This document shows, one piece after another, positions 3,433 to 18,960 of a stretch of 46,338 nucleotides of DNA; within the stretch, counting starts at the first letter, position 1, and every line of letters starts with the position of its first letter. Source of the stretch: Gammaproteobacteria bacterium (GTDB lineage Bacteria; Pseudomonadota; Gammaproteobacteria; UBA6429; Thiohalophilaceae); the NCBI GenBank assembly GCA_030148325.1, contig JASBTR010000162.1:1-46338 (forward strand), read 5' to 3'. The notes beneath the pieces were generated by a model. It was given only the letters and a program-made list of their open reading frames with translations. It was not told the DNA's origin and did no database searches. Position numbers and translations under genes: made by a program.

Positions 3433-5817
3433 GTGAACGGACAAGACGCCACTACAGATAACACCGCCTCCCTGATCAGGATTCCCGGCTACAGTATCAA
3501 AAGGCTGCTGGGCCGTGGCGGTATGGCGACCGTCTACCTGGCGATACAGGAAAGCCTCGGCCGCGAAGTGGCGCTGAAAGTTCTTGATCCGAATCAGGCG
3601 CAGGGCCAACAGTTTTCCGAGCGCTTTTTGCGCGAAGCCCGTATCGTCAGCCATCTCATGCATCCCAATATTGTCACCGTATTCGATGTCGGTGTGCATG
3701 AGGGCTATCACTATTTGTCGATGGAATACATTGCCGGCCGGGATCTCCGGGATGCCTGTGGCGATATCTCAAGAAAAGAGCTGATCCGAATCATCAAGGA
3801 CGTTGCCCGGGCACTGAATTTTGCGGCAAAAAAAGGTTATGTCCACCGTGATGTAAAACCGGAAAACATCATGCTGCATGAAGGTGATGGGCGTGTGGTA
3901 TTGATGGACTTTGGCATTGCCCGCAGTTATCAAACCAGCCACGGCCTGACCAGGGCCGGCAGCGCACTGGGCACCCCCTATTATATGAGTCCTGAACAGA
4001 ACAAGGGACTCAACGCCGATCACCGCTCCGATATCTACAGTCTGGGCGTGGTGTTTTTTCATATGCTCAGCGGCTACGTTCCCTATGATGCCGACTCCGC
4101 CGTTGCCATCGGCATCAAGCATATCACGGCGGCTATTCCCGTCCTCTCTGATGAACTGCAAATCTTCCAGCCCATTATCAATACCTGCCTGGCCAAGGAA
4201 CCTGAAGATCGTTACCAGACAGCAGCCGAACTGATCGAGGCGCTGGATCAGATCAGCGATGAAAATCTGGCGGCTATCGAAGAAAAATGTGCCGCTTTTC
4301 AGGAAGCCGGTAAAAACCATCATGCCGAAACCCTTATAAGTTCAGGAACAAATTCAGGCACAAGCTTCAGCGCCAGCAAAGATATTCACGCACCTGAACT
4401 CACACCGGCGCCGCATAATCGAACTTCTTTTTCTGTTTTTCTGCTGTTGCTGTTAGTGCTTATTGCAGGGGCTCTTGCTTACCAGCAACGACAGGAAATA
4501 CTTCGTTACGCAGAAACGCTGGACATACCCTGGTTGACCCAAACTATCGAAAGACTGCAGCTAACGCAGACGCCTGTTGCAGAGAATATTAGAGCCGCCG
4601 CGCAGCCAGATGCGATCCCGGATACAGTTCCAGATACAATCCAGGACGCAGCCCGGGAAAGCGTCAGTAACAGTGCGGCCGCAAAGGGAAAACAGAAACT
4701 GGAGTATATCGATAAAATCCAGGCCGCCATTGATTCCGGCAACCCCACACAGGCGCTTGGCCTGATGGCTGAAATGCAGGAACAGGATCCCCGGATTGCC
4801 AGTGATCAGAAGTTTATTCAGACCCGCGAACAACTACAGGCACAACTGCAACAGGCGCAGGCCCTGCCTGGACATCTTGCCAATGCCAGAAAATATTTCG
4901 AATCCGGCGCTATCATAACGGCCGAAAAAAACAATGCGCTGTCTGAACTTGAGGCGGCCCTGAAACTGGATCCAAACAATGCCGAAGCCTTAAAAATGTT
5001 ACAGGATATCAACCAGTCCTGGCTGAAGAAAACAAAGCAACAATCGTCCAGCTGGCGACTTCGTAAACAGCTGAAAAAACTCGATGGCATGATAACGCAG
5101 CTCAATATCCGTCACCCGGTTGTACTCGAACAGCAGAAAAAACTGCAACAGGCTATCCATCATATCGCACAGGTAAAGAAACTACTGCAACAGGCCGATG
5201 AGGCGTTTAACAAAAACCAGCTAATCAGCCCTGCAGATAACAGCGCCTATAGCCGTTATCAGAAGGTACTGGCCATTGAAACACATAATCGGCACGCGAA
5301 AGAGAAGCTGAAAGAAATCGAAGCCCGACTCACAGAGCAGATCACTCAGGCCATCGAACAGGGTCGTCTGACCCAGGCAAGCATCTTCCTCGAACAGGCG
5401 CAGTCGGTTTATGGCCACAGTAGCAGAATTGTAGAAATCGAAAGCATGCTCGAAAAAGCCACCGCAGCCACACAACCACAGGTCAGCCGGATTCTGTTCA
5501 GCGCCACGCCACTGCAGTCACTGGATCAGCCACAGGCTGACACACTGCAACTCGGGCGCACGCTCTACATCGGCTTTCACTTCAAAAACATGGAAAACAC
5601 AAGTACACTGTTACAGGCGGTGCTCCTTGATGGCGCTGGACGGATACAGATATCCCAGAAGCCTGTTATTGTTTCAGGCAGCGAGGGCGATCACTTTTTC
5701 CAGATTGAACAGCCGGTGGAAGGTTTCAGCGAGGGCAGCTATATTCTGGAATTGCGGCTGGATAATAAACGCCTGCTGAGTCAGCCGTTTCTGGTCAACA
5801 ACATTTATCAACCCTGA
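3433..5817 (+). CDS. Transmembrane serine/threonine protein kinase
   Basis: A 794-residue Hanks-type kinase starting with GTG. The kinase domain (about 18-275) has the glycine loop GRGGMATV (27-34), catalytic lysine K49 (VALKV), HRDVKPEN with D140, DFG at 159-161, the activation-segment motif SPEQ, and SDIYSLG. One membrane span lies at about 333-350, so the kinase is cytoplasmic. The rest is periplasmic: a helical, probably coiled-coil or TPR-like region (about 420-680) rich in Q, A and K, then a beta-rich terminal domain (about 684-794). No PASTA repeats are seen. The ligand and targets are unknown. The next gene starts 17 bases later and encodes a lipoprotein, so the two are probably one operon that links an envelope state to cytoplasmic phosphorylation (inference). 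Confidence 0.92.
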   Translation: MNGQDATTDNTASLIRIPGYSIKRLLGRGGMATVYLAIQESLGREVALKVLDPNQAQGQQFSERFLREARIVSHLMHPNIVTVFDVGVHEGYHYLSMEYIAGRDLRDACGDISRKELIRIIKDVARALNFAAKKGYVHRDVKPENIMLHEGDGRVVLMDFGIARSYQTSHGLTRAGSALGTPYYMSPEQNKGLNADHRSDIYSLGVVFFHMLSGYVPYDADSAVAIGIKHITAAIPVLSDELQIFQPIINTCLAKEPEDRYQTAAELIEALDQISDENLAAIEEKCAAFQEAGKNHHAETLISSGTNSGTSFSASKDIHAPELTPAPHNRTSFSVFLLLLLVLIAGALAYQQRQEILRYAETLDIPWLTQTIERLQLTQTPVAENIRAAAQPDAIPDTVPDTIQDAARESVSNSAAAKGKQKLEYIDKIQAAIDSGNPTQALGLMAEMQEQDPRIASDQKFIQTREQLQAQLQQAQALPGHLANARKYFESGAIITAEKNNALSELEAALKLDPNNAEALKMLQDINQSWLKKTKQQSSSWRLRKQLKKLDGMITQLNIRHPVVLEQQKKLQQAIHHIAQVKKLLQQADEAFNKNQLISPADNSAYSRYQKVLAIETHNRHAKEKLKEIEARLTEQITQAIEQGRLTQASIFLEQAQSVYGHSSRIVEIESMLEKATAATQPQVSRILFSATPLQSLDQPQADTLQLGRTLYIGFHFKNMENTSTLLQAVLLDGAGRIQISQKPVIVSGSEGDHFFQIEQPVEGFSEGSYILELRLDNKRLLSQPFLVNNIYQP

Positions 5818-5834: not shown

Positions 5835-6599
5835 GTGTTTCGAATTTTGTCTCTGTTAGCAATACCCTCCATGCTGATTCTGAGCGGCTGTCAAACACCG
5901 GTCAACATACAGGAACTTGAAAGCCGCAACCAGTCACTGCAACAGCAGCTGGACATGGCACAGAATGAAATCCAGTCACTGGAGTCTGAACGCTCCCAAC
6001 TACAGACTGCACTGGATGAATCCAACCGGGTACGGGAGATCATCGGCAAGGAAAAATCCTCCCGTTTTAACGAAGCCACCCTGCTACGCAGTCAGGTGCG
6101 CCGCTTCGTGCAGGATCAGATCGATGTTTATAAATCCTTCCTTGTCAATAACAACCTGCTCGACTATGTCGGTGGCGAACTGGTCAAACGTAAACAGTAT
6201 GACAACCGGCCCATCATGCTGGTGGATCTAAAAAATGAAATTCCCCGCACCGGTGTACTAACGGGCGTTGGCGCCTGGTTCATTAAACCCACCCGCATGA
6301 CCGTCAAAGTCCTGCGTAAAATAGATAACAAACTGGTCGTGGTATGGGAAAGCCGTAATCTGAACATCAGCAAAACCGGGCTGATCAAAACCCGCTTCCA
6401 CGTTACTGTCGGCGTCGAAAAAGGTGATGTGCTGGGTTATTACTTTCCGGAAGCCGCCACAGTCGCCTTCGACAAAGGCACCGGTGACACTCGTTACCTG
6501 AGCCGTGATCTACGCACCGGTTCCAGCATCAGCCCATCGTCTCTGGAAGGGGAACAGAAACGCGCTTATTCACTGGGCGTGTATGGGCTACTTCAATAA
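5835..6599 (+). CDS. Lipoprotein of unknown function, coupled to the Ser/Thr kinase
   Basis: A 254-residue protein starting with GTG, with CGGAG seven bases upstream. The signal peptide ends in a canonical lipobox, LSGC (C19). Residues 26-75 form a Q/E/L-rich coiled coil, and the rest looks beta-rich (GVLTGVGAWFIKP, MTVKVLRK, VVVWESR). I do not recognise the family. Position 20 is Q, not D, so the Lol avoidance signal is absent and outer-membrane sorting is expected. Its tight spacing behind the kinase suggests that it may contact the kinase's periplasmic domain. Confidence 0.8.
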   Translation: MFRILSLLAIPSMLILSGCQTPVNIQELESRNQSLQQQLDMAQNEIQSLESERSQLQTALDESNRVREIIGKEKSSRFNEATLLRSQVRRFVQDQIDVYKSFLVNNNLLDYVGGELVKRKQYDNRPIMLVDLKNEIPRTGVLTGVGAWFIKPTRMTVKVLRKIDNKLVVVWESRNLNISKTGLIKTRFHVTVGVEKGDVLGYYFPEAATVAFDKGTGDTRYLSRDLRTGSSISPSSLEGEQKRAYSLGVYGLLQ

Positions 6600-10259: not shown

Positions 10260-13200
10260 TTATTTACATGGCAAAAAGCGCACTGTGGTTTCTATTTCAG
10301 CCAGAACATTTTTTAATTCTTCTAACGTAATCTTAATATCTTTTTCCGTGATGTCCGTATCCAGTGAAAATCGAACAGCACAATGTGCATCTTCTTCCGT
10401 AGAACCCATTGCCATCAATACGTGGGTTGGTTTGGGGGAACCTGACTTGCACGCTGAGCCCGACGAAAAGGATATGCCACGCTGATCCAGTGCAACCACG
10501 AGTGATTCGCCACGTATACCCGGCAGACTCATATTAAGTGTATTGGGAAGACGCCGGGTTTGGTGCCCATTTAAGTGGGACATCGGTACGAGTTCCTCGA
10601 TTCCCTTTTGAAGCTGGTCGCGCAATCGCGCCATGGGGCTGTTTTCATGCAACGATTCCAGCGCCAGCTCAGCTGCTTTCCCCATGCCAACAATCGCCGG
10701 GACATTTTCGGTACCCGCACGCAGACCAAATTCCTGTTGCCCGCCATGAATTAGAGACTCCAGTTCAATACCTTTTCGCGCATAGAGCATCCCGACACCT
10801 TTGGGTCCGTGAAACTTATGCCCGGAAAGGCTCAGAAGATCGACATCCAGCTTTTCTATATCGATGGGTATTTTTCCTGCAGCCTGAACTGCATCAGTAT
10901 GGAACAGCACGCCATGAGCATGCGCGACCTGTGCCAGTTCCCTGATCGGCTGAATACTACCAACTTCATTGTTGGCCATCATGATCGAAACCAGGATAGT
11001 TTTATCGGTTAAGGCGTCGGCTAATTGTTGCGGGTGAATAAGTCCGTCTCTGTCTACATTGAGATAGGTAAGCCTGAATCCCTGACGCTCAAGGAAAGCG
11101 GCCGTTTGTAAAATGGCCGGGTGTTCGATTCGGCTGGTAATGATATGCCAGCCGCTGGATTTCCGGGCGAATGCGATCCCTTTTAATGCCAGATTATTGG
11201 CTTCACTACCGCCACCAGTAAACATAATTCGCCTGGGCCTGGCGTTAATCAGCCTGCCCATCTGGCGACGGGCTTTATCAATAGCTTCATGCGCATCCCG
11301 CCCCACGCTATGGATGCTGGAAGGGTTACCATAAAGAGATTCAAGATAAGGCAACATCGCCTGTTTCACGCCTTTTGCTATGGCCGTGGTGGCATTGTTG
11401 TCAAGATAAATACTATGCCTGCGCTCTTCCCGCCCCTTACCGTTCAATGCCGTTGTTACCCTGTCTATACTATCTGCTCGGCTCAGGCGCGATTTTGCTT
11501 TAGCGTCACCGGCTTCCAGCTTGACTACATCGCAGAGCAGCGCCTTATACACCGGGAATCCGGAAATCTCATCATAATTATACAAATCGGTCAATTCGTT
11601 AACATTCCATTCTTGCCAGGCTTTCGGCCCCACCGGCGTACCGCCCCCCATATTGACCTCGATGGCGCCCCAGACAATATCATTACTGATCCTGGCACGA
11701 AACGGCACCGCGCCTCGGGCTGTGCGCACCTCTACCAGATCACCCTGTTCAATACCTCTGATTCGAGCATCTTCGATATTAATTTCGACTGTTGGTTCAG
11801 GGTTATCTTTATTAAGACCTTTGATACCATGGTGTTGTGAGCGGAAATCGGTCTGAGGACGCGCACCGGAGTTAAAAACCAGAGGGAAACGCTTATTAAG
11901 TTTCGGTGCCGCCTGCGGGCCTTCAACCGGCTCGATATATTTCGGTAATGGCTCATAGCCATACTCCTCCAGTTTGCTGGACCAGATTTCAAACTTGCCA
12001 CTGGGCGTTTCGAAGCCGGGTTTCCCGTCTTCTCGCAATCCTCCTTTTTCATATTTTTTGTATTCCATCATCGGCGTGTGTAATTTAACCCCGCCACCGT
12101 TGTCCTGAATATCTTCCAGGCTATAACCAGATCCTTCTAATGCCGCTCGTATGACTTCATCTTCAGTTTGAGGATAAAGGTGACCGTACCCCAGTCGTTG
12201 AGCCAGTTCCGCCATAATTAGATAATCATTACGCGCTTCACCTATGGGTTCCATCAGTTTTTCACGCAACCGAAAGATAGGGCCATAGACCATGTACGAA
12301 TCGATCTCGAACATCGTAGTCGCCGGCAGCACGATGTCAGCATATGCGGAATCCGCAGTAAGTTGACGATCAATGCTGACGACAAAATCAAGTTTGGACA
12401 GTGTTTCACGCCAGATGGAGGTTTGTGGCCAGGAAGTCAGCAGGGAGGCGCCGTGGATAATCAGGCCACGAATAGAGTACGGCTCACCATGCAGCACCGC
12501 ATCGACCAGGCCGGAAGCATGCGACTCCCCACGATAGTCGCTGTAAAGTGGAAATTTATCCCGCGCTGCAGCTCGCTGTAAATCGGGATTTTCCTGATTA
12601 CAGGAACGATTAATGGGGAAGTGCTGACCACGCATAGCCAGCCCCATTCCGCCCGGCGTATCAAGATGACCACTGATCGCAAACAGGCTTAATACGGCGC
12701 GAACAGCCTGAATGCCACTATTGGAATACTCTAACCCCGTATACATAACCGGCGCAGCACCTGTAGCCCTGGCAATACGTCGGGCAAGATCTCGAATTTT
12801 ATCCGCAGGTACAGCGGTAATTTTTTCTACGACTTCCGGGCGAAAATGCTGCGTATAAGTTATCAACTCATCAAAACCCAGCGTCCACTGATCTACAAAC
12901 TTTTCATCATACAAATCTTCATCGATCAGCACACCAATCATAGACAATGCCAGAGCGCCGTCAGTACCAGGGCGGATGGCAATCCATTCAGCGTCCGTGC
13001 GTTTGGCCGTCTCGGTACAGCGCGGATCGATTACCACAATGTCACAGCCCCTTTTCGCGGCCGCCTCAAGACGAATCATATCTAACGGGGGCGAATCAGT
13101 CGCTGGATTGGCGCCCCATACCAGTAGTAGTTCCGCATTTTCCATGTCCGTGTACATATTGGTCAACATGGTTCCCAGGGTTACATCGGGAGCAATCATG

Positions 13201-13667
13201 GCAAAGGAGACGTAACACAGCGCGCCAACCCCCATGGTATTAGGTGAACCAAAGGGGAAAAGAATATTAGATGCGGAAGAGACCGCGACCCCTTTCGGTT
13301 GATACATGTCACAGAGTGAGAGTTCAAACGCACCTCGCCCCGTATAAATAGAAACAGCCTCTGGACCTGATTCTGCTTTGATAGCGTTAAGATTTTTGAC
13401 AATAATGTCATAAGCCTCGTCCCAACTAACGGGCTCAAACTCATAACTGCCTTTGGCTCCCACACGTTTCATGGGATGCTTCAGGCGATGTTCAGAATAA
13501 ATAATTTCCGGGGCATGCTGTCCGCGACGACAGATCATACCAAGTTGATGGGTTTTATCGGCGCGAACATCTACAATTTTGCCGTTTTTCATTCCGGCTT
13601 CAATCCAGCAACCTGCCGGGCAAATGCCGCAGATGCCTTTTTTCCATTCAACTTCCTGCATCGCCAT
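10260..13667 (-). CDS. Molybdopterin oxidoreductase fused to a cysteine desulfurase
   Basis: A 1135-residue two-enzyme fusion in one uninterrupted frame. Residues 1 to about 720 are a DMSO-reductase-superfamily subunit. It has a [4Fe-4S] motif C13-x2-C16-x3-C20-x25-C46, likely bis-MGD binding segments (VWGANPATDSPP, VIDPRCTETAKRTD) and the C-terminal molydopterin-binding domain (about 590-715). C151 in GALCYVSF is the best candidate Mo ligand. After a charged linker (about 720-750), residues 752-1125 are a NifS/IscS-type cysteine desulfurase: YLDNNATT, EHPAIL, NNEVGSIQP, HTDAVQA (923-929), PLP lysine K951 in SGHKFHGPKG, and active-site cysteine C1073 in SSGSACKSGS. No Tat signal is present, so it is cytoplasmic. 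AAGGAAG precedes the ATG. There are no adjacent ferredoxin or membrane subunits. The reaction of the Mo half is unknown; a role for the NifS half in sulfurating the cofactor, or in passing persulfide to the Mo site, is inference. Confidence 0.93.
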   Translation of the reverse strand: MAMQEVEWKKGICGICPAGCWIEAGMKNGKIVDVRADKTHQLGMICRRGQHAPEIIYSEHRLKHPMKRVGAKGSYEFEPVSWDEAYDIIVKNLNAIKAESGPEAVSIYTGRGAFELSLCDMYQPKGVAVSSASNILFPFGSPNTMGVGALCYVSFAMIAPDVTLGTMLTNMYTDMENAELLLVWGANPATDSPPLDMIRLEAAAKRGCDIVVIDPRCTETAKRTDAEWIAIRPGTDGALALSMIGVLIDEDLYDEKFVDQWTLGFDELITYTQHFRPEVVEKITAVPADKIRDLARRIARATGAAPVMYTGLEYSNSGIQAVRAVLSLFAISGHLDTPGGMGLAMRGQHFPINRSCNQENPDLQRAAARDKFPLYSDYRGESHASGLVDAVLHGEPYSIRGLIIHGASLLTSWPQTSIWRETLSKLDFVVSIDRQLTADSAYADIVLPATTMFEIDSYMVYGPIFRLREKLMEPIGEARNDYLIMAELAQRLGYGHLYPQTEDEVIRAALEGSGYSLEDIQDNGGGVKLHTPMMEYKKYEKGGLREDGKPGFETPSGKFEIWSSKLEEYGYEPLPKYIEPVEGPQAAPKLNKRFPLVFNSGARPQTDFRSQHHGIKGLNKDNPEPTVEINIEDARIRGIEQGDLVEVRTARGAVPFRARISNDIVWGAIEVNMGGGTPVGPKAWQEWNVNELTDLYNYDEISGFPVYKALLCDVVKLEAGDAKAKSRLSRADSIDRVTTALNGKGREERRHSIYLDNNATTAIAKGVKQAMLPYLESLYGNPSSIHSVGRDAHEAIDKARRQMGRLINARPRRIMFTGGGSEANNLALKGIAFARKSSGWHIITSRIEHPAILQTAAFLERQGFRLTYLNVDRDGLIHPQQLADALTDKTILVSIMMANNEVGSIQPIRELAQVAHAHGVLFHTDAVQAAGKIPIDIEKLDVDLLSLSGHKFHGPKGVGMLYARKGIELESLIHGGQQEFGLRAGTENVPAIVGMGKAAELALESLHENSPMARLRDQLQKGIEELVPMSHLNGHQTRRLPNTLNMSLPGIRGESLVVALDQRGISFSSGSACKSGSPKPTHVLMAMGSTEEDAHCAVRFSLDTDITEKDIKITLEELKNVLAEIETTVRFLPCK

Positions 13668-13731: not shown

Positions 13732-13908
13732 ATAAACTACCCCGCTGCAAGCGGGCGGGGTATTAGATCGCAGGAGCGAGCTTGCTCGCGAAAGCGGTTG
13801 CCTGAACCTCAAACTGTTCGCGGACGAGCCCGCTCCTACCGGTTTTCGCCACCTGCTCCTACCGATTTTCGCTGCAAGCAGCGGGGAATTTAACCCAAAG
13901 AGATTAAA
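13732..13908. repeat. Composite intergenic palindrome, copy C
   Basis: It has the same outer frame and orientation as the copy at 10060: a left hairpin of the CCCCGC...GGGGTATTA type (13738-13764) and a right end with CGCTGC-AA-GCAGCG, GGGGAATT and AGAGATTAAA. The core is different: a GGAGCGAGCTTGCTCGCGAA element (13773-13792) facing GTTCGCGGACGAGCCCGCTC, resembling Pseudomonas-type REP sequences. The right end runs into the stop codon of the DUF302 gene. Copies A and C bracket the Mo/NifS fusion gene as direct repeats. Confidence 0.8.
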
Positions 13909-14413
13909 AATCGCCACTTGCACCGGCCTGCATTATTCGCGCCAGTGTTTTATTGATACGCATTGCAATTGTTTTCAGTTTCGGTGGCAAATCTGTATTA
14001 TTAATTAACATATCCAGGTTAATCATCATTAACCATACTTTGCCATTTCCATCTTCAACCAGCGCTATTCGGCAAGGCATGTATGCGGCAAAAATCGGAT
14101 TAAATTTCACCATTTTGTGCGCATCTGCCGGGTTGCAAAACTGAAATATCTCAAGCCTTCCTGATTTAATGCCACGAGCCTTCAATTCTTTTGATAGCGG
14201 CTGGTGCGCAACAAATTTCATGTTCAGTTCAATTGCTTTCGATTTTAGCGCGATAATTGCATCATCCGCACTAACATCATCAGCAAGAGGCAATTTAGAC
14301 ACCGTTTGAGAAATATCAAACTGTATCACCGGGGGAACAGACTTTCCAGCATAAGCAGAATAATGAATACATAACAATGTGACTGATAAAAGAATCGCTT
14401 TTTTCAATTTCAT
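13904..14413 (-). CDS. Exported DUF302-family protein
   Basis: A 169-residue protein with a Sec signal peptide (KKAILLSVTLLCIHYSAYA, cleavage probably after AYA at about 22). The mature part has the DUF302 pattern: DDAIIALKSKAIELNMKFV, LEIFQFCNPADAHKM and YMPCRIALVEDGNGKVWL. The molecular function of DUF302 proteins is not settled. Two conserved-looking cysteines (in FQFCNP and MPCRIA) could form a disulfide or bind a ligand. It lies 29 bases after the DUF5996 gene and is probably co-transcribed with it. Confidence 0.85.
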   Translation of the reverse strand: MKLKKAILLSVTLLCIHYSAYAGKSVPPVIQFDISQTVSKLPLADDVSADDAIIALKSKAIELNMKFVAHQPLSKELKARGIKSGRLEIFQFCNPADAHKMVKFNPIFAAYMPCRIALVEDGNGKVWLMMINLDMLINNTDLPPKLKTIAMRINKTLARIMQAGASGDF

Positions 14414-14442
14414 TTTAATTTACCCGCTTTAATTAAAAATAA

Positions 14443-15351
14443 TTACAACTCAAAAGATTTAGAATCCCACTCGCTGCATTCACAACCCGCCTGATAAGCG
14501 CTTTGTAGAAAAAGCATGATATCCGCATCGGGATCCTGTGATTGCTGCACTGACTCGTAAGGCAAAAAGGCCATGGCATAGCCCGGATCAGTATTCCAGA
14601 CAGCCGCATCCGGCTGCAGACGTTGCTCTATCAGCGCCTCAGGCTCAGGATATACATAAGCATAAAAAGCAGCCTCTCTTACCACCTCATCTCCCGCCCA
14701 GAATCCAAAACTCATTACTTCATGGGAGTAGGCTTCTCGTTCAACATTGGTGGGCCATGTTCTTTCCGGCGCGCGGTTCCCTGAAAATCGGCTGACAACA
14801 AGATCAAGATGATGCCAGAACAGATGAACCGGAGTGCTTTTCCCTATGTACATTGACCTGTATTTCTCAAACACCGTACCGACGAGAACCAGTATTCGCC
14901 AAAATCTGTTTACGTACTCCTTGTCATATTGGGCGGCAACCTTATTGCTCTCAAAAGGCACCTTGCTGATATTGTCGTAGGGAACAGAATTAATCTCGAC
15001 ATTTACACCAAGTTCAGAAAGCATCCTGAGAATAGTGTTGTAGAATTGAGCAACAGATACCCCATTTATATTAACAAACTCCAGTTCTCCGTTACTGGTT
15101 CGGATAGAAACCACATGATGGATAAAATCAAATTCGATCTCGAACATCATTCCATTATAAGGAATGGGTCGTGTCGTAAGTCCGCGCGTGGAAATATATA
15201 ACGGAGCATGCCACCAGTGATTTGTTTTTGGAAAAAGCCCCAGCCTTATTTTCCCAACAATCTGGACATAAAGATGTAGTGTTTTTTTTGTTTCCTCCCA
15301 CTCAGCCAGTGGCAGCGGGGGATATGTGGGGTGTTGAATTTTATGTACCAT
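14443..15351 (-). CDS. DUF5996-family protein
   Basis: A 302-residue, probably cytoplasmic protein. The opening PPLPLAEWEETKKTLHLYVQ, then IVGKIRLGL, TNHWWHAPLYIS and RGLTT, are the hallmark of DUF5996; the biochemical role is unknown. Trp and His residues are frequent (NHWWH, LFWHHLDL), which may mark a metal or ligand pocket. The ATG has GGAG six bases upstream. It lies 80 bases downstream of the LtrA gene and 29 bases upstream of the DUF302 gene on the same strand. A small inverted repeat (ATCCTC/GAGGAT, 15372-15388) sits in the gap to LtrA. Confidence 0.85.
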   Translation of the reverse strand: MVHKIQHPTYPPLPLAEWEETKKTLHLYVQIVGKIRLGLFPKTNHWWHAPLYISTRGLTTRPIPYNGMMFEIEFDFIHHVVSIRTSNGELEFVNINGVSVAQFYNTILRMLSELGVNVEINSVPYDNISKVPFESNKVAAQYDKEYVNRFWRILVLVGTVFEKYRSMYIGKSTPVHLFWHHLDLVVSRFSGNRAPERTWPTNVEREAYSHEVMSFGFWAGDEVVREAAFYAYVYPEPEALIEQRLQPDAAVWNTDPGYAMAFLPYESVQQSQDPDADIMLFLQSAYQAGCECSEWDSKSFEL

Positions 15352-15431
15352 AACAGGCTCCGTGTTAAGACATCCTCATGGCGAGGATAGTCGCCATATT
15401 CACAAATAAGCATCGTTACCCGTTAAGATGT

Positions 15432-16592
15432 TTATTTAACTACTTTTATAACAAATGCGGATTCCAGCCAGATATATATGACCAGCATGGAAACTATCGC
15501 AAATGCAAGAAACTGATTGCTAATAAAGCTCGACAGACCAACGAAAATAAGGATTGATGTAAGTATCAACAGCCCCCGCGCAAAAAACAACCTGCCCGAT
15601 TTGTTATTTATATATTGATGATGAATAAATTGCAGCGGCACAAGTATCAATAACAGACTAAAAGAGAATATAAAACTTAAATCGTTTGTGGAATGGTTGG
15701 TGGAAACCAGTCTTTGCACCCCGGCAGCGAGCAGTCCTATCCCCATATATATTGGTAAATGCCCGTAAAGAAACAGGTGGGCGGCGCCCTGCAAATTTCC
15801 TGTGAGCGCTTTTTCCAGTGTTTCAAAATATAACCACCAAATTGCGCAAATTATAGAAAACCCAAAAACCAGATTCAGGACAAGCGTTTCAGAAAACTCA
15901 TAAGTATCCGCACCCGACACAAGACCAAGAAAAGATTCCCCCATCACCAACAAGGCAAAAAGTCCTGCCCTTTCCGGTAAATGTGTATTATGTACGGGAA
16001 CCAGGGCGAGTTGTTTTCGCAGTAAAAGAGGCGTTGCCAGTTCAATTACAAGCCCTGCAACCCATAATATATACATTGCCGGTGGCGGAAAAAATACAGA
16101 AACCACCCAGCAAGATGAACCCACAGCAAAACCAAAGGACAGGCCGCCCGCGATGGGTCGAACATCCGGGTTACCAAGATAGACCCGCATATACATAAGA
16201 ACTAAAATCCAGCGGGTGGCTGCGTAGGCTAAAGCGAATATTACGCCGGTTTTTCCAAATGCATTGCCAACCCCGAAGGCAAGCATAATAGCAAAAAACA
16301 TCTGTAATAACGTGAGCAGGCTATCTGTGATGTCATAGGTGCCAAACCTGTTTTGGTACATAGTATGGCCAACCCATGACCACCACACCGGGACAAAAAG
16401 TGTAAAGAATGCCAGGTAATCGCTGGTTTCTATATGCCCATTATGCCCCGCGACAACAATATGTGTTAACCGCGTCAGCGCCACAACATAAACAAGATCA
16501 AAGAACAGTTCTAGCCAGACGGCATGCCTTCCTTCCTCAGTATTAAGCCCTATACGTTTCACTGAATTACCTGCCGTCAATAACAATTGCAC
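15432..16592 (-). CDS. Low temperature requirement protein A (LtrA) family membrane protein
   Basis: A 386-residue polytopic protein with about ten predicted spans. The N-terminal signature HAVWLELFFDLVYVVALTRL is characteristic of the LtrA family, named for a Listeria locus needed for growth in the cold. The transported substrate, if any, is unknown. The longest frame begins with GTG at 16592 without a ribosome binding site. An in-frame GTG at 16562 has AGG seven bases upstream and leaves the conserved region intact, so it may be the real start. It heads a possible operon with the DUF5996 and DUF302 genes. Confidence 0.88.
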   Translation of the reverse strand: MQLLLTAGNSVKRIGLNTEEGRHAVWLELFFDLVYVVALTRLTHIVVAGHNGHIETSDYLAFFTLFVPVWWSWVGHTMYQNRFGTYDITDSLLTLLQMFFAIMLAFGVGNAFGKTGVIFALAYAATRWILVLMYMRVYLGNPDVRPIAGGLSFGFAVGSSCWVVSVFFPPPAMYILWVAGLVIELATPLLLRKQLALVPVHNTHLPERAGLFALLVMGESFLGLVSGADTYEFSETLVLNLVFGFSIICAIWWLYFETLEKALTGNLQGAAHLFLYGHLPIYMGIGLLAAGVQRLVSTNHSTNDLSFIFSFSLLLILVPLQFIHHQYINNKSGRLFFARGLLILTSILIFVGLSSFISNQFLAFAIVSMLVIYIWLESAFVIKVVK

Positions 16593-17162: not shown

Positions 17163-18131
17163 ATGACGCCCCCCCTTTCACAAAGATTACTGTTTCACGA
17201 TCTGGAGCCTGAGAACTCCAGTTTTCATGAAGATATCATAAGCGGATTAAGCAACAAACCGCGAAATATCCCGCCAAAGTATTTTTATGACGAACACGGT
17301 TCTCACCTGTTTGATGCGATATGTGAAACACCCGAGTACTATCCAACCCGGACAGAAACAGCCATCATAAAAGATAACCTGGAAGAAATTTGCACATATC
17401 TCGGAAAAGAGTGTGTATTAATCGAGCCGGGAAGTGGCGCCAGCAAAAAGGTACGTCTTCTATTAGATATGCTCGAACCTCACACCTATATCCCTCTGGA
17501 TATTTCAAGCGACTACCTTTATTCTGTTGCCAGGAATCTGGTGTCTGAATATCCGAAACTTCGAGTTATAGCTGCATGTGTCGATTTTACTACCCCCATA
17601 AATCTACCCGACTACCCGGTTAAAAAACGGCGAGTCGCTTTTTTCCCTGGCTCAAGCATTGGCAACTTTGAACCTGAAGAAGCTGTGACCTTTCTGAGAA
17701 ATCTGCATAGTTTAGTTGAACCTGGTGGCGGGTTGTTGATTGGCGTTGATTTGAAAAAAGATCCCGATATTCTTAATAATGCTTACAATGATAAACAGGG
17801 GATAACCGCACAGTTTAATCTAAACATTCTGACCCATATAAACCGCAAATTAAACACAAATTTTGACGTTGATTGTTTTGAGCACAAAGCTTTTTATAAT
17901 GAAGTTTCAGGAAGAGTTGAAATGCATCTACTGTGCAAAGACAGTCAATCCGTCACCATTGGTAACAACGTATTTAAACTTGAACAGGGAGAGTCTATAC
18001 ACACAGAAAATTCATATAAATATTCTATTTCTGAGTTTCACTCCCTGGCCATGCAAGCTGGATTCAATAGAGAAAAAACATGGACGGATGCAGATGGATT
18101 GTTCAGCATCCATTACCTTAGAGCCTCATAG
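17163..18131 (+). CDS. egtD: L-histidine N-alpha-methyltransferase (EgtD)
   Basis: A 322-residue enzyme of the usual length that trimethylates histidine to hercynine, the first step to ergothioneine. Family landmarks are PKYFYDEHGS (38-47), TPEYYPTRTE (56-65), the SAM-binding EPGSGASKK (88-96), FFPGSSIGNFEPEEA (160-174) and YNDKQGITAQFN (208-219). Residues matching the histidine pocket of the mycobacterial enzyme are present: N168, Y208, M254, E282 and S284. This supports true histidine specificity rather than a divergent paralogue. GGAGA lies upstream of the ATG. The usual partner EgtB is not in the window. The inverted repeat AGCCTCA/TGAGGCT (18122-18138) surrounds the stop codon. Confidence 0.93.
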   Translation: MTPPLSQRLLFHDLEPENSSFHEDIISGLSNKPRNIPPKYFYDEHGSHLFDAICETPEYYPTRTETAIIKDNLEEICTYLGKECVLIEPGSGASKKVRLLLDMLEPHTYIPLDISSDYLYSVARNLVSEYPKLRVIAACVDFTTPINLPDYPVKKRRVAFFPGSSIGNFEPEEAVTFLRNLHSLVEPGGGLLIGVDLKKDPDILNNAYNDKQGITAQFNLNILTHINRKLNTNFDVDCFEHKAFYNEVSGRVEMHLLCKDSQSVTIGNNVFKLEQGESIHTENSYKYSISEFHSLAMQAGFNREKTWTDADGLFSIHYLRAS

Positions 18132-18201: not shown

Positions 18202-18960
18202 CTACACGATTTTATAACGAATAGCTTTAGCCACCGCCTGTGAGCGGTTTGCCACATTGAGCTTTTGGTAAATATTATTCAGGTGAAATTTTACTGTTCG
18301 CTCAGATATTGAAAGAATGACACCAATTTCCCAGGCGGTCTTACCTTCATAGGACCACTTTAGCGTTTCCCTCTCTCTTAGCGTAAAATTTGGAAGATCT
18401 TTCGGTATCTGCTCGGTTTTACCTAGCCTGCCAATTGCCTCATGCAAGTGCGGCACTATATATGCAGCTATATCAAGATACTCTTTACCTGCTTTATAGC
18501 CGGCTGTTTCAAGCGACATGATGGTATCAACATTTTCTCCAATAGAGGCGTTACGTGAACAGGATATACCCGCTTTCATACCGTAATCTTCTGCTAATCC
18601 GATAAACTCCTTCATCTCACTGGTCAATTCGACATCATGGTACGCTGTCTCCCATTTAAACGGTTCCACTGTTTGGGTGCTCATCAGGGCAACAGGATCA
18701 ACCTGGCCAAAATTATTTTCACTATAGCTTTGCACCCATTTCAGTGGATAACTGTGATTGATACTTTCATCAATGTTTAGTACTACACTTTCTCTATCCT
18801 TCCGGCAAAGAATAGCGCTATTAAATGGAATTACCTCATTCAACGAATCAATAATTCTCAGAATATCCTCATGACTTCTGGCATACAAACAGTCATGCAT
18901 AATTCCCATGAGTTTTTTCAGATCATTATTCTCGAGGTTTAGTTCAAGCATCTTGGCCAC
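18202..18960 (-). CDS. LuxR-family quorum-sensing regulator without a LuxI
   Basis: A 252-residue regulator with an N-terminal autoinducer-binding domain (about 20-175) and a C-terminal LuxR helix-turn-helix (about 188-250; LRERETLKWSYEGKTAWEIG then ISERTVKFHLNNIYQKL). The six residues conserved in acyl-homoserine-lactone receptors are all present with TraR spacing: W75, Y79, D88, P89, W103 and G131. No luxI-type synthase gene is visible in the window, so it is a LuxR solo that may sense AHLs made elsewhere or by other species. The longest frame starts with GTG at 18960; ATG at 18951 is an equally good candidate. It is convergent with egtD. Confidence 0.92.
   Translation of the reverse strand: MAKMLELNLENNDLKKLMGIMHDCLYARSHEDILRIIDSLNEVIPFNSAILCRKDRESVVLNIDESINHSYPLKWVQSYSENNFGQVDPVALMSTQTVEPFKWETAYHDVELTSEMKEFIGLAEDYGMKAGISCSRNASIGENVDTIMSLETAGYKAGKEYLDIAAYIVPHLHEAIGRLGKTEQIPKDLPNFTLRERETLKWSYEGKTAWEIGVILSISERTVKFHLNNIYQKLNVANRSQAVAKAIRYKIV

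Follow-up and report, generated by a model that had tools for sequence, protein, structure and literature searches.

The window, a 46,338-nucleotide stretch of a gammaproteobacterial contig, contains a gene that very probably encodes a metallopterin-dependent synthase (MES) of the antioxidant ergothioneine. Its architecture, a molybdopterin enzyme fused to a cysteine desulfurase, is that of an enzyme class already published in 2022 and is not new to science. That discovery explains the fusion, and the value of the present case lies in its genomic context. New here is genomic evidence for the exchange of EgtB and MES and for the presence of MES in oxygen-respiring hosts. On balance, we favor a scenario in which MES is no relic confined to strict anaerobes. 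Oxygen-respiring bacteria with high-affinity oxidases would have gained it at least twice within a single order of Gammaproteobacteria. They would have kept the egtD they already had, while the O2-independent MES took over from the O2-dependent EgtB, in one case at the egtB locus itself. If this is true, ergothioneine synthesis is a modular pathway in which the oxygen supply determines which enzyme carries out the sulfur step.

The gene is an uninterrupted frame of 1135 codons with an ATG start (10260..13667, minus strand); the plus strand of the same interval has many stops. The encoded protein of 1135 aa joins a bis-MGD module of the DMSO-reductase family to a cysteine desulfurase, and all four Pfam domains score above their gathering cut-offs, in line with the single-frame fusion described in an earlier note on this DNA. 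In order, these are a [4Fe-4S] domain (Molybdop_Fe4S4, PF04879; residues 7-58, 13494..13649), a molybdopterin oxidoreductase domain (PF00384; residues 61-490, 12198..13487), a molybdopterin dinucleotide binding domain (Molydop_binding, PF01568; residues 603-709, 11541..11861) and a NifS/IscS-type cysteine desulfurase domain (Aminotran_5, PF00266; residues 753-1112, 10332..11411), all on the minus strand. A variable linker (residues ~716-752, 11412..11522, minus strand) of low conservation within an otherwise gap-poor alignment separates the two halves. The leading NCBIfam matches of the protein fall below equivalog cut-offs. For the NifS equivalog (FeS_nifS, TIGR03402) the score is 500.8 bits against a cut-off of 530.75. 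No curated family spans both halves, and each of the NCBIfam matches listed covers one half only. The N-terminus (MAMQEVEWKKGICG...) carries no Tat or Sec signal, which agrees with the earlier view of a self-contained cytoplasmic protein, a picture consistent with MES.

The positions singled out earlier as functional are strongly conserved. C13, C16, C20 and C46 of the [4Fe-4S] domain, C151 (13215..13217), K951 (10815..10817) and C1073 (10449..10451) are each identical in 31 out of 31 homologues. C1134 (10266..10268), the penultimate residue within the C-terminal RFLPCK, is likewise invariant across the 31; these codons too are on the minus strand. The proposal of C151 as candidate molybdenum ligand gains from alignment to solved structures: in acetylene hydratase (2e7z), its counterpart is the cysteine that follows the SPN motif, where the metal ligand is expected. 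The PDB chains nearest to the Mo half are this hydratase and polysulfide/thiosulfate reductase (2vpw); both differ from MES in having no desulfurase domain and in catalyzing other reactions. No solved MES structure was found, and among the PDB matches listed no chain aligns to both halves. An AlphaFold2 model of the full protein based on the 31-sequence alignment reached a pTM of 0.47, and its pLDDT fell under 50 for residues 123-160, 1072-1077 and 1128-1135. Because confidence is low at exactly these sites, distances between C151, C1073 and C1134 are unreadable.

A single scan of genome contigs recovered 44 related loci (L009-L052; 57-93% identity) from independent assemblies. The earlier note had asked for proteins that align over both halves and the linker; all 44 do, with the Mo–NifS junction within one open frame in each. 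The linker is therefore no product of misassembly, and the fusion is both genuine and ancient. The hosts include Gammaproteobacteria, Chloroflexota, Gemmatimonadota, KSB1, Aminicenantes, Latescibacterota, Bdellovibrionota, Acidobacteria and Myxococcota, among others. Two of the copies (L045:7974-11356 and L031:7956-11408) have an apparent frameshift, located in the Mo half and not at the linker (near residues 505-519 and 81-83, respectively), due to either sequencing error or decay. In another locus (L046; G038, CP070707.1) the MES frame is longer, at 1297 aa with an extra upstream part, and this chromosome-level assembly encodes MES, EgtD and EgtB together.

The assignment to MES is based on comparison with CaMES of Caldithrix abyssi (Beliaeva & Seebeck 2022, PMC9516567). 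CaMES has an N-terminal bis-MGD module and a C-terminal cysteine desulfurase in 1136 aa, and makes ergothioneine without oxygen by passing cysteine sulfur via the Mo (or W) site to trimethylhistidine (PMC9516567). The reaction was demonstrated with enzyme expressed in E. coli, and C153, K952, C1074 and C1135 were needed for it; sulfur transfer was intramolecular and obligatory (PMC9516567). We judged likeness by architecture, length and residue numbering, with a 75%-identical Calditrichaeota copy (L032) as proxy. The two proteins share domain order and length, and every CaMES residue with an assigned role has a counterpart in the window protein: the [4Fe-4S] cysteines C14, C17, C21 and C48 correspond to C13, C16, C20 and C46, the Mo/W ligand C153 to C151, the PLP lysine K952 to K951, the persulfide cysteine C1074 to C1073 and the second relay cysteine C1135 to C1134. 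C1096, the counterpart of CaMES C1097, is not invariant among the 31 aligned relatives, being serine in L021. This agrees with C1097 being dispensable in CaMES, in which C1135 is essential (PMC9516567). Both genomes also encode egtD. The window differs in that egtD is divergent and 3.5 kb off, and in that its host, a gammaproteobacterium, encodes a cbb3 cytochrome oxidase. From homology and genomic context, the window copy is expected to be active and to make ergothioneine in its host.

In the mechanism that we propose, drawn from the published CaMES mutants and isotope exchange (PMC9516567), EgtD would trimethylate histidine to trimethylhistidine, and the C-terminal PLP desulfurase (K951) would take sulfur from L-cysteine to form a persulfide on C1073. 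The sulfur would then move, probably via C1134, to the bis-MGD metal, of which C151 would be the ligand. There, attack by the imidazole of trimethylhistidine would place the sulfur on C2, giving ergothioneine in an O2-free reaction. The earlier suggestion that the NifS domain supplies the metal site with sulfur in cis was right in outline, as shown for the Caldithrix homologue, and its alternative version, with persulfide as a substrate at the Mo site, is what has been demonstrated for that enzyme (PMC9516567). The part that fails to fit is the likeness to cofactor maturation. Moco sulfurases (ABA3/HMCS, NifS-like plus MOSC) and the IscS–FdhD system also bring a cysteine-derived persulfide to the Mo cofactor. 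However, they sulfurate the cofactor once, at maturation, whereas MES uses up sulfur at every turnover. A Pfam scan of the window protein gave no match to a MOSC domain, the FdhA and PhsA models score far below their cut-offs, and the recurrent neighbor is EgtD. FdhD (PF02634) had no match in the window genome, which is 99.5% complete, although the same search was positive in 8 out of 14 control genomes.

These observations bear on two other readings of the Mo module. It could be a formate dehydrogenase- or oxidoreductase-like enzyme in which the NifS domain replaces FdhD and sulfurates the cofactor of the same chain in cis, a single time. The sulfuration of formate dehydrogenases by IscS and FdhD is established, the genome has no detectable FdhD, and FdhA (TIGR01591) is the best full-length model for the module. 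Yet this model reaches 309 bits against a cut-off of 666, no electron-transfer partners lie nearby, the genetic linkage is to EgtD and not to redox subunits, and the CaMES desulfurase is required for turnover, not activation (PMC9516567). We consider this reading very unlikely. Even less probable, in our view, is a cytoplasmic enzyme resembling thiosulfate or polysulfide reductase, with the NifS persulfide as electron acceptor or as a substrate in sulfur trafficking. The structural proximity to 2vpw and a PhsA (NF012032) score of 272 bits speak for it, but the cut-off for PhsA is 694, B and C subunits and a Tat signal are lacking, and both the linkage to EgtD and the replacement of EgtB would be left unexplained. 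Based on cut-offs, gene context and the absence of FdhD, we rejected both FdhD-type maturation and a polysulfide reductase.

A third reading accepts an MES-like enzyme but assigns it another heterocycle, or selenoneine made with selenium from selenocysteine, besides or instead of ergothioneine. NifS-type desulfurases can also use selenocysteine, and the specificity of the window clade for its substrate is putative. Both the occurrence of the enzyme together with EgtD and its taking the place of EgtB indicate trimethylhistidine and sulfur, and there is little chance that this reading holds.

The connection to EgtD, unmentioned in the earlier note, is apparent in the window itself. The gene for L-histidine N-alpha-trimethyltransferase (egtD, 17163..18131, plus strand; TIGR03438, 408 bits against a cut-off of 290.9; PF10017) is present in single copy in the genome; it lies 3.5 kb from the MES gene in divergent orientation, and the two do not form one operon. 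Across the 44 related loci EgtD is the only recurrent neighbor of the fusion (17-19 loci; the next cluster occurs in 5). It was found over the cut-off in 37 of the 45 MES genomes. The remaining eight are mostly incomplete bins, and two of them have fragments. The window genome also encodes MobA for bis-MGD supply (TIGR02665, 225 bits, over the cut-off), and has no match to EgtB. EgtB is the sulfoxide synthase of the aerobic ergothioneine pathway, which needs O2 and uses non-haem iron. It takes the same pathway step as MES, the addition of sulfur to trimethylhistidine, although the two proteins are unrelated.

We surveyed 40 genomes of the order to which the window belongs, all from one family. 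MES occurs in five of these (G000, the window genome, and G046, G047, G048 and G066), EgtB over the cut-off in 24 and EgtD in 27, and no genome has MES and EgtB together. The 27 genomes with EgtD divide into 23 that have EgtB and not MES and 4 that have MES and not EgtB. Conversely, EgtD is present in 23 out of 24 EgtB genomes and in four out of five MES genomes, the exception being G047 (66% complete), and in none of the 11 genomes that have neither MES nor EgtB (Fisher test, P = 3.4e-8 for 40 genomes; given that the genomes are related, the P value is only a guide). Within the order, this distribution of EgtD, EgtB and MES fits only a role as MES. Strict exclusivity does not extend across phyla, as EgtB over the cut-off accompanies MES in 6 of the 44 other MES genomes.

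The exchange can be seen in two genomes of the same genus. In G065, a Sel1-repeat gene, a MoxR gene, a VWA gene and two more genes are followed by egtB-egtD. In G066, the same five genes (82, 87, 72, 64 and 53% identity) are followed by MES-egtD, with EgtD at 67% identity. MES in G066 therefore occupies the syntenic slot of egtB in G065, and inside one genus the aerobic and anaerobic ergothioneine enzymes stand in for each other beside egtD. This supports the function of MES independently of the original heterologous assay and bears on the part that ergothioneine plays in low-oxygen life. In the EgtD tree, a supported group (98/98) unites the EgtDs from the MES genomes of the order with EgtDs that accompany EgtB in this order, the former nested within the latter, and the neighbor of the window EgtD comes from an EgtB genome (99/98). 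The MES tree gives the genus of the window a clade of its own (100/100), with G066 apart from it (96/93). The simplest reading is that MES arrived at least twice in egtD-bearing bacteria of the order and that egtB was lost. The direction would thus be from EgtB to MES, with the caveat that L109 is a long branch of uncertain placement.

MES homologues were said to be encoded exclusively in anaerobes (PMC9516567). With CcoN (680 bits, over the cut-off) and CcoO, the window genome has the genes of a cbb3 oxidase, so MES is not confined to anaerobes. Haem-copper oxidases over the Pfam cut-off were found in 28 of the 45 MES genomes, a family that also includes NO reductases. A binning error is not the cause in Candidatus Thiosymbion (L042/G034), where contig C1 carries both egtD/MES and the oxidase (492 bits). 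Oxygen-respiring hosts such as these call the anaerobes-only statement into question. Within the order, the MES genomes checked have cbb3-type CcoN only, and the EgtB genomes G065 and G060 have aa3-type CtaD. The link between MES and low-oxygen life is suggestive only, because four of the five MES genomes belong to one genus. Elsewhere in the window genome (L097, G000:C107, 3909-11144, minus strand), a cytochrome b/HdrA-like ferredoxin fusion protein lies between two divergent homologues of haem-copper oxidases. By NCBIfam cut-offs these homologues are neither cbb3 nor aa3, and are possibly NO-reductase-like.

Several other genes in the window deserve mention. A protein of 794 aa with a Ser/Thr protein kinase domain (3433-5817, plus strand) is followed by a lipoprotein-like ORF with no Pfam match (5835-6599, plus strand). 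Adjoining egtD is a LuxR-type regulator with autoinducer-binding and GerE domains (18202-18960, minus strand). A regulator of this type is also beside egtD in G048 (L099:14489-15202) and upstream of MES in L010 (L010:298-996), and it possibly regulates ergothioneine synthesis in the genus of the window. A search for LuxI gave no match in the window genome or in any control genome. Between MES and egtD are DUF302, DUF5996 and LtrA genes (13904-16592, minus strand), an order that is kept in G048 (68-75% identity) and partly in G047. DUF5996 is also found near egtD in G046 (L102) and adjoining MES in L020.
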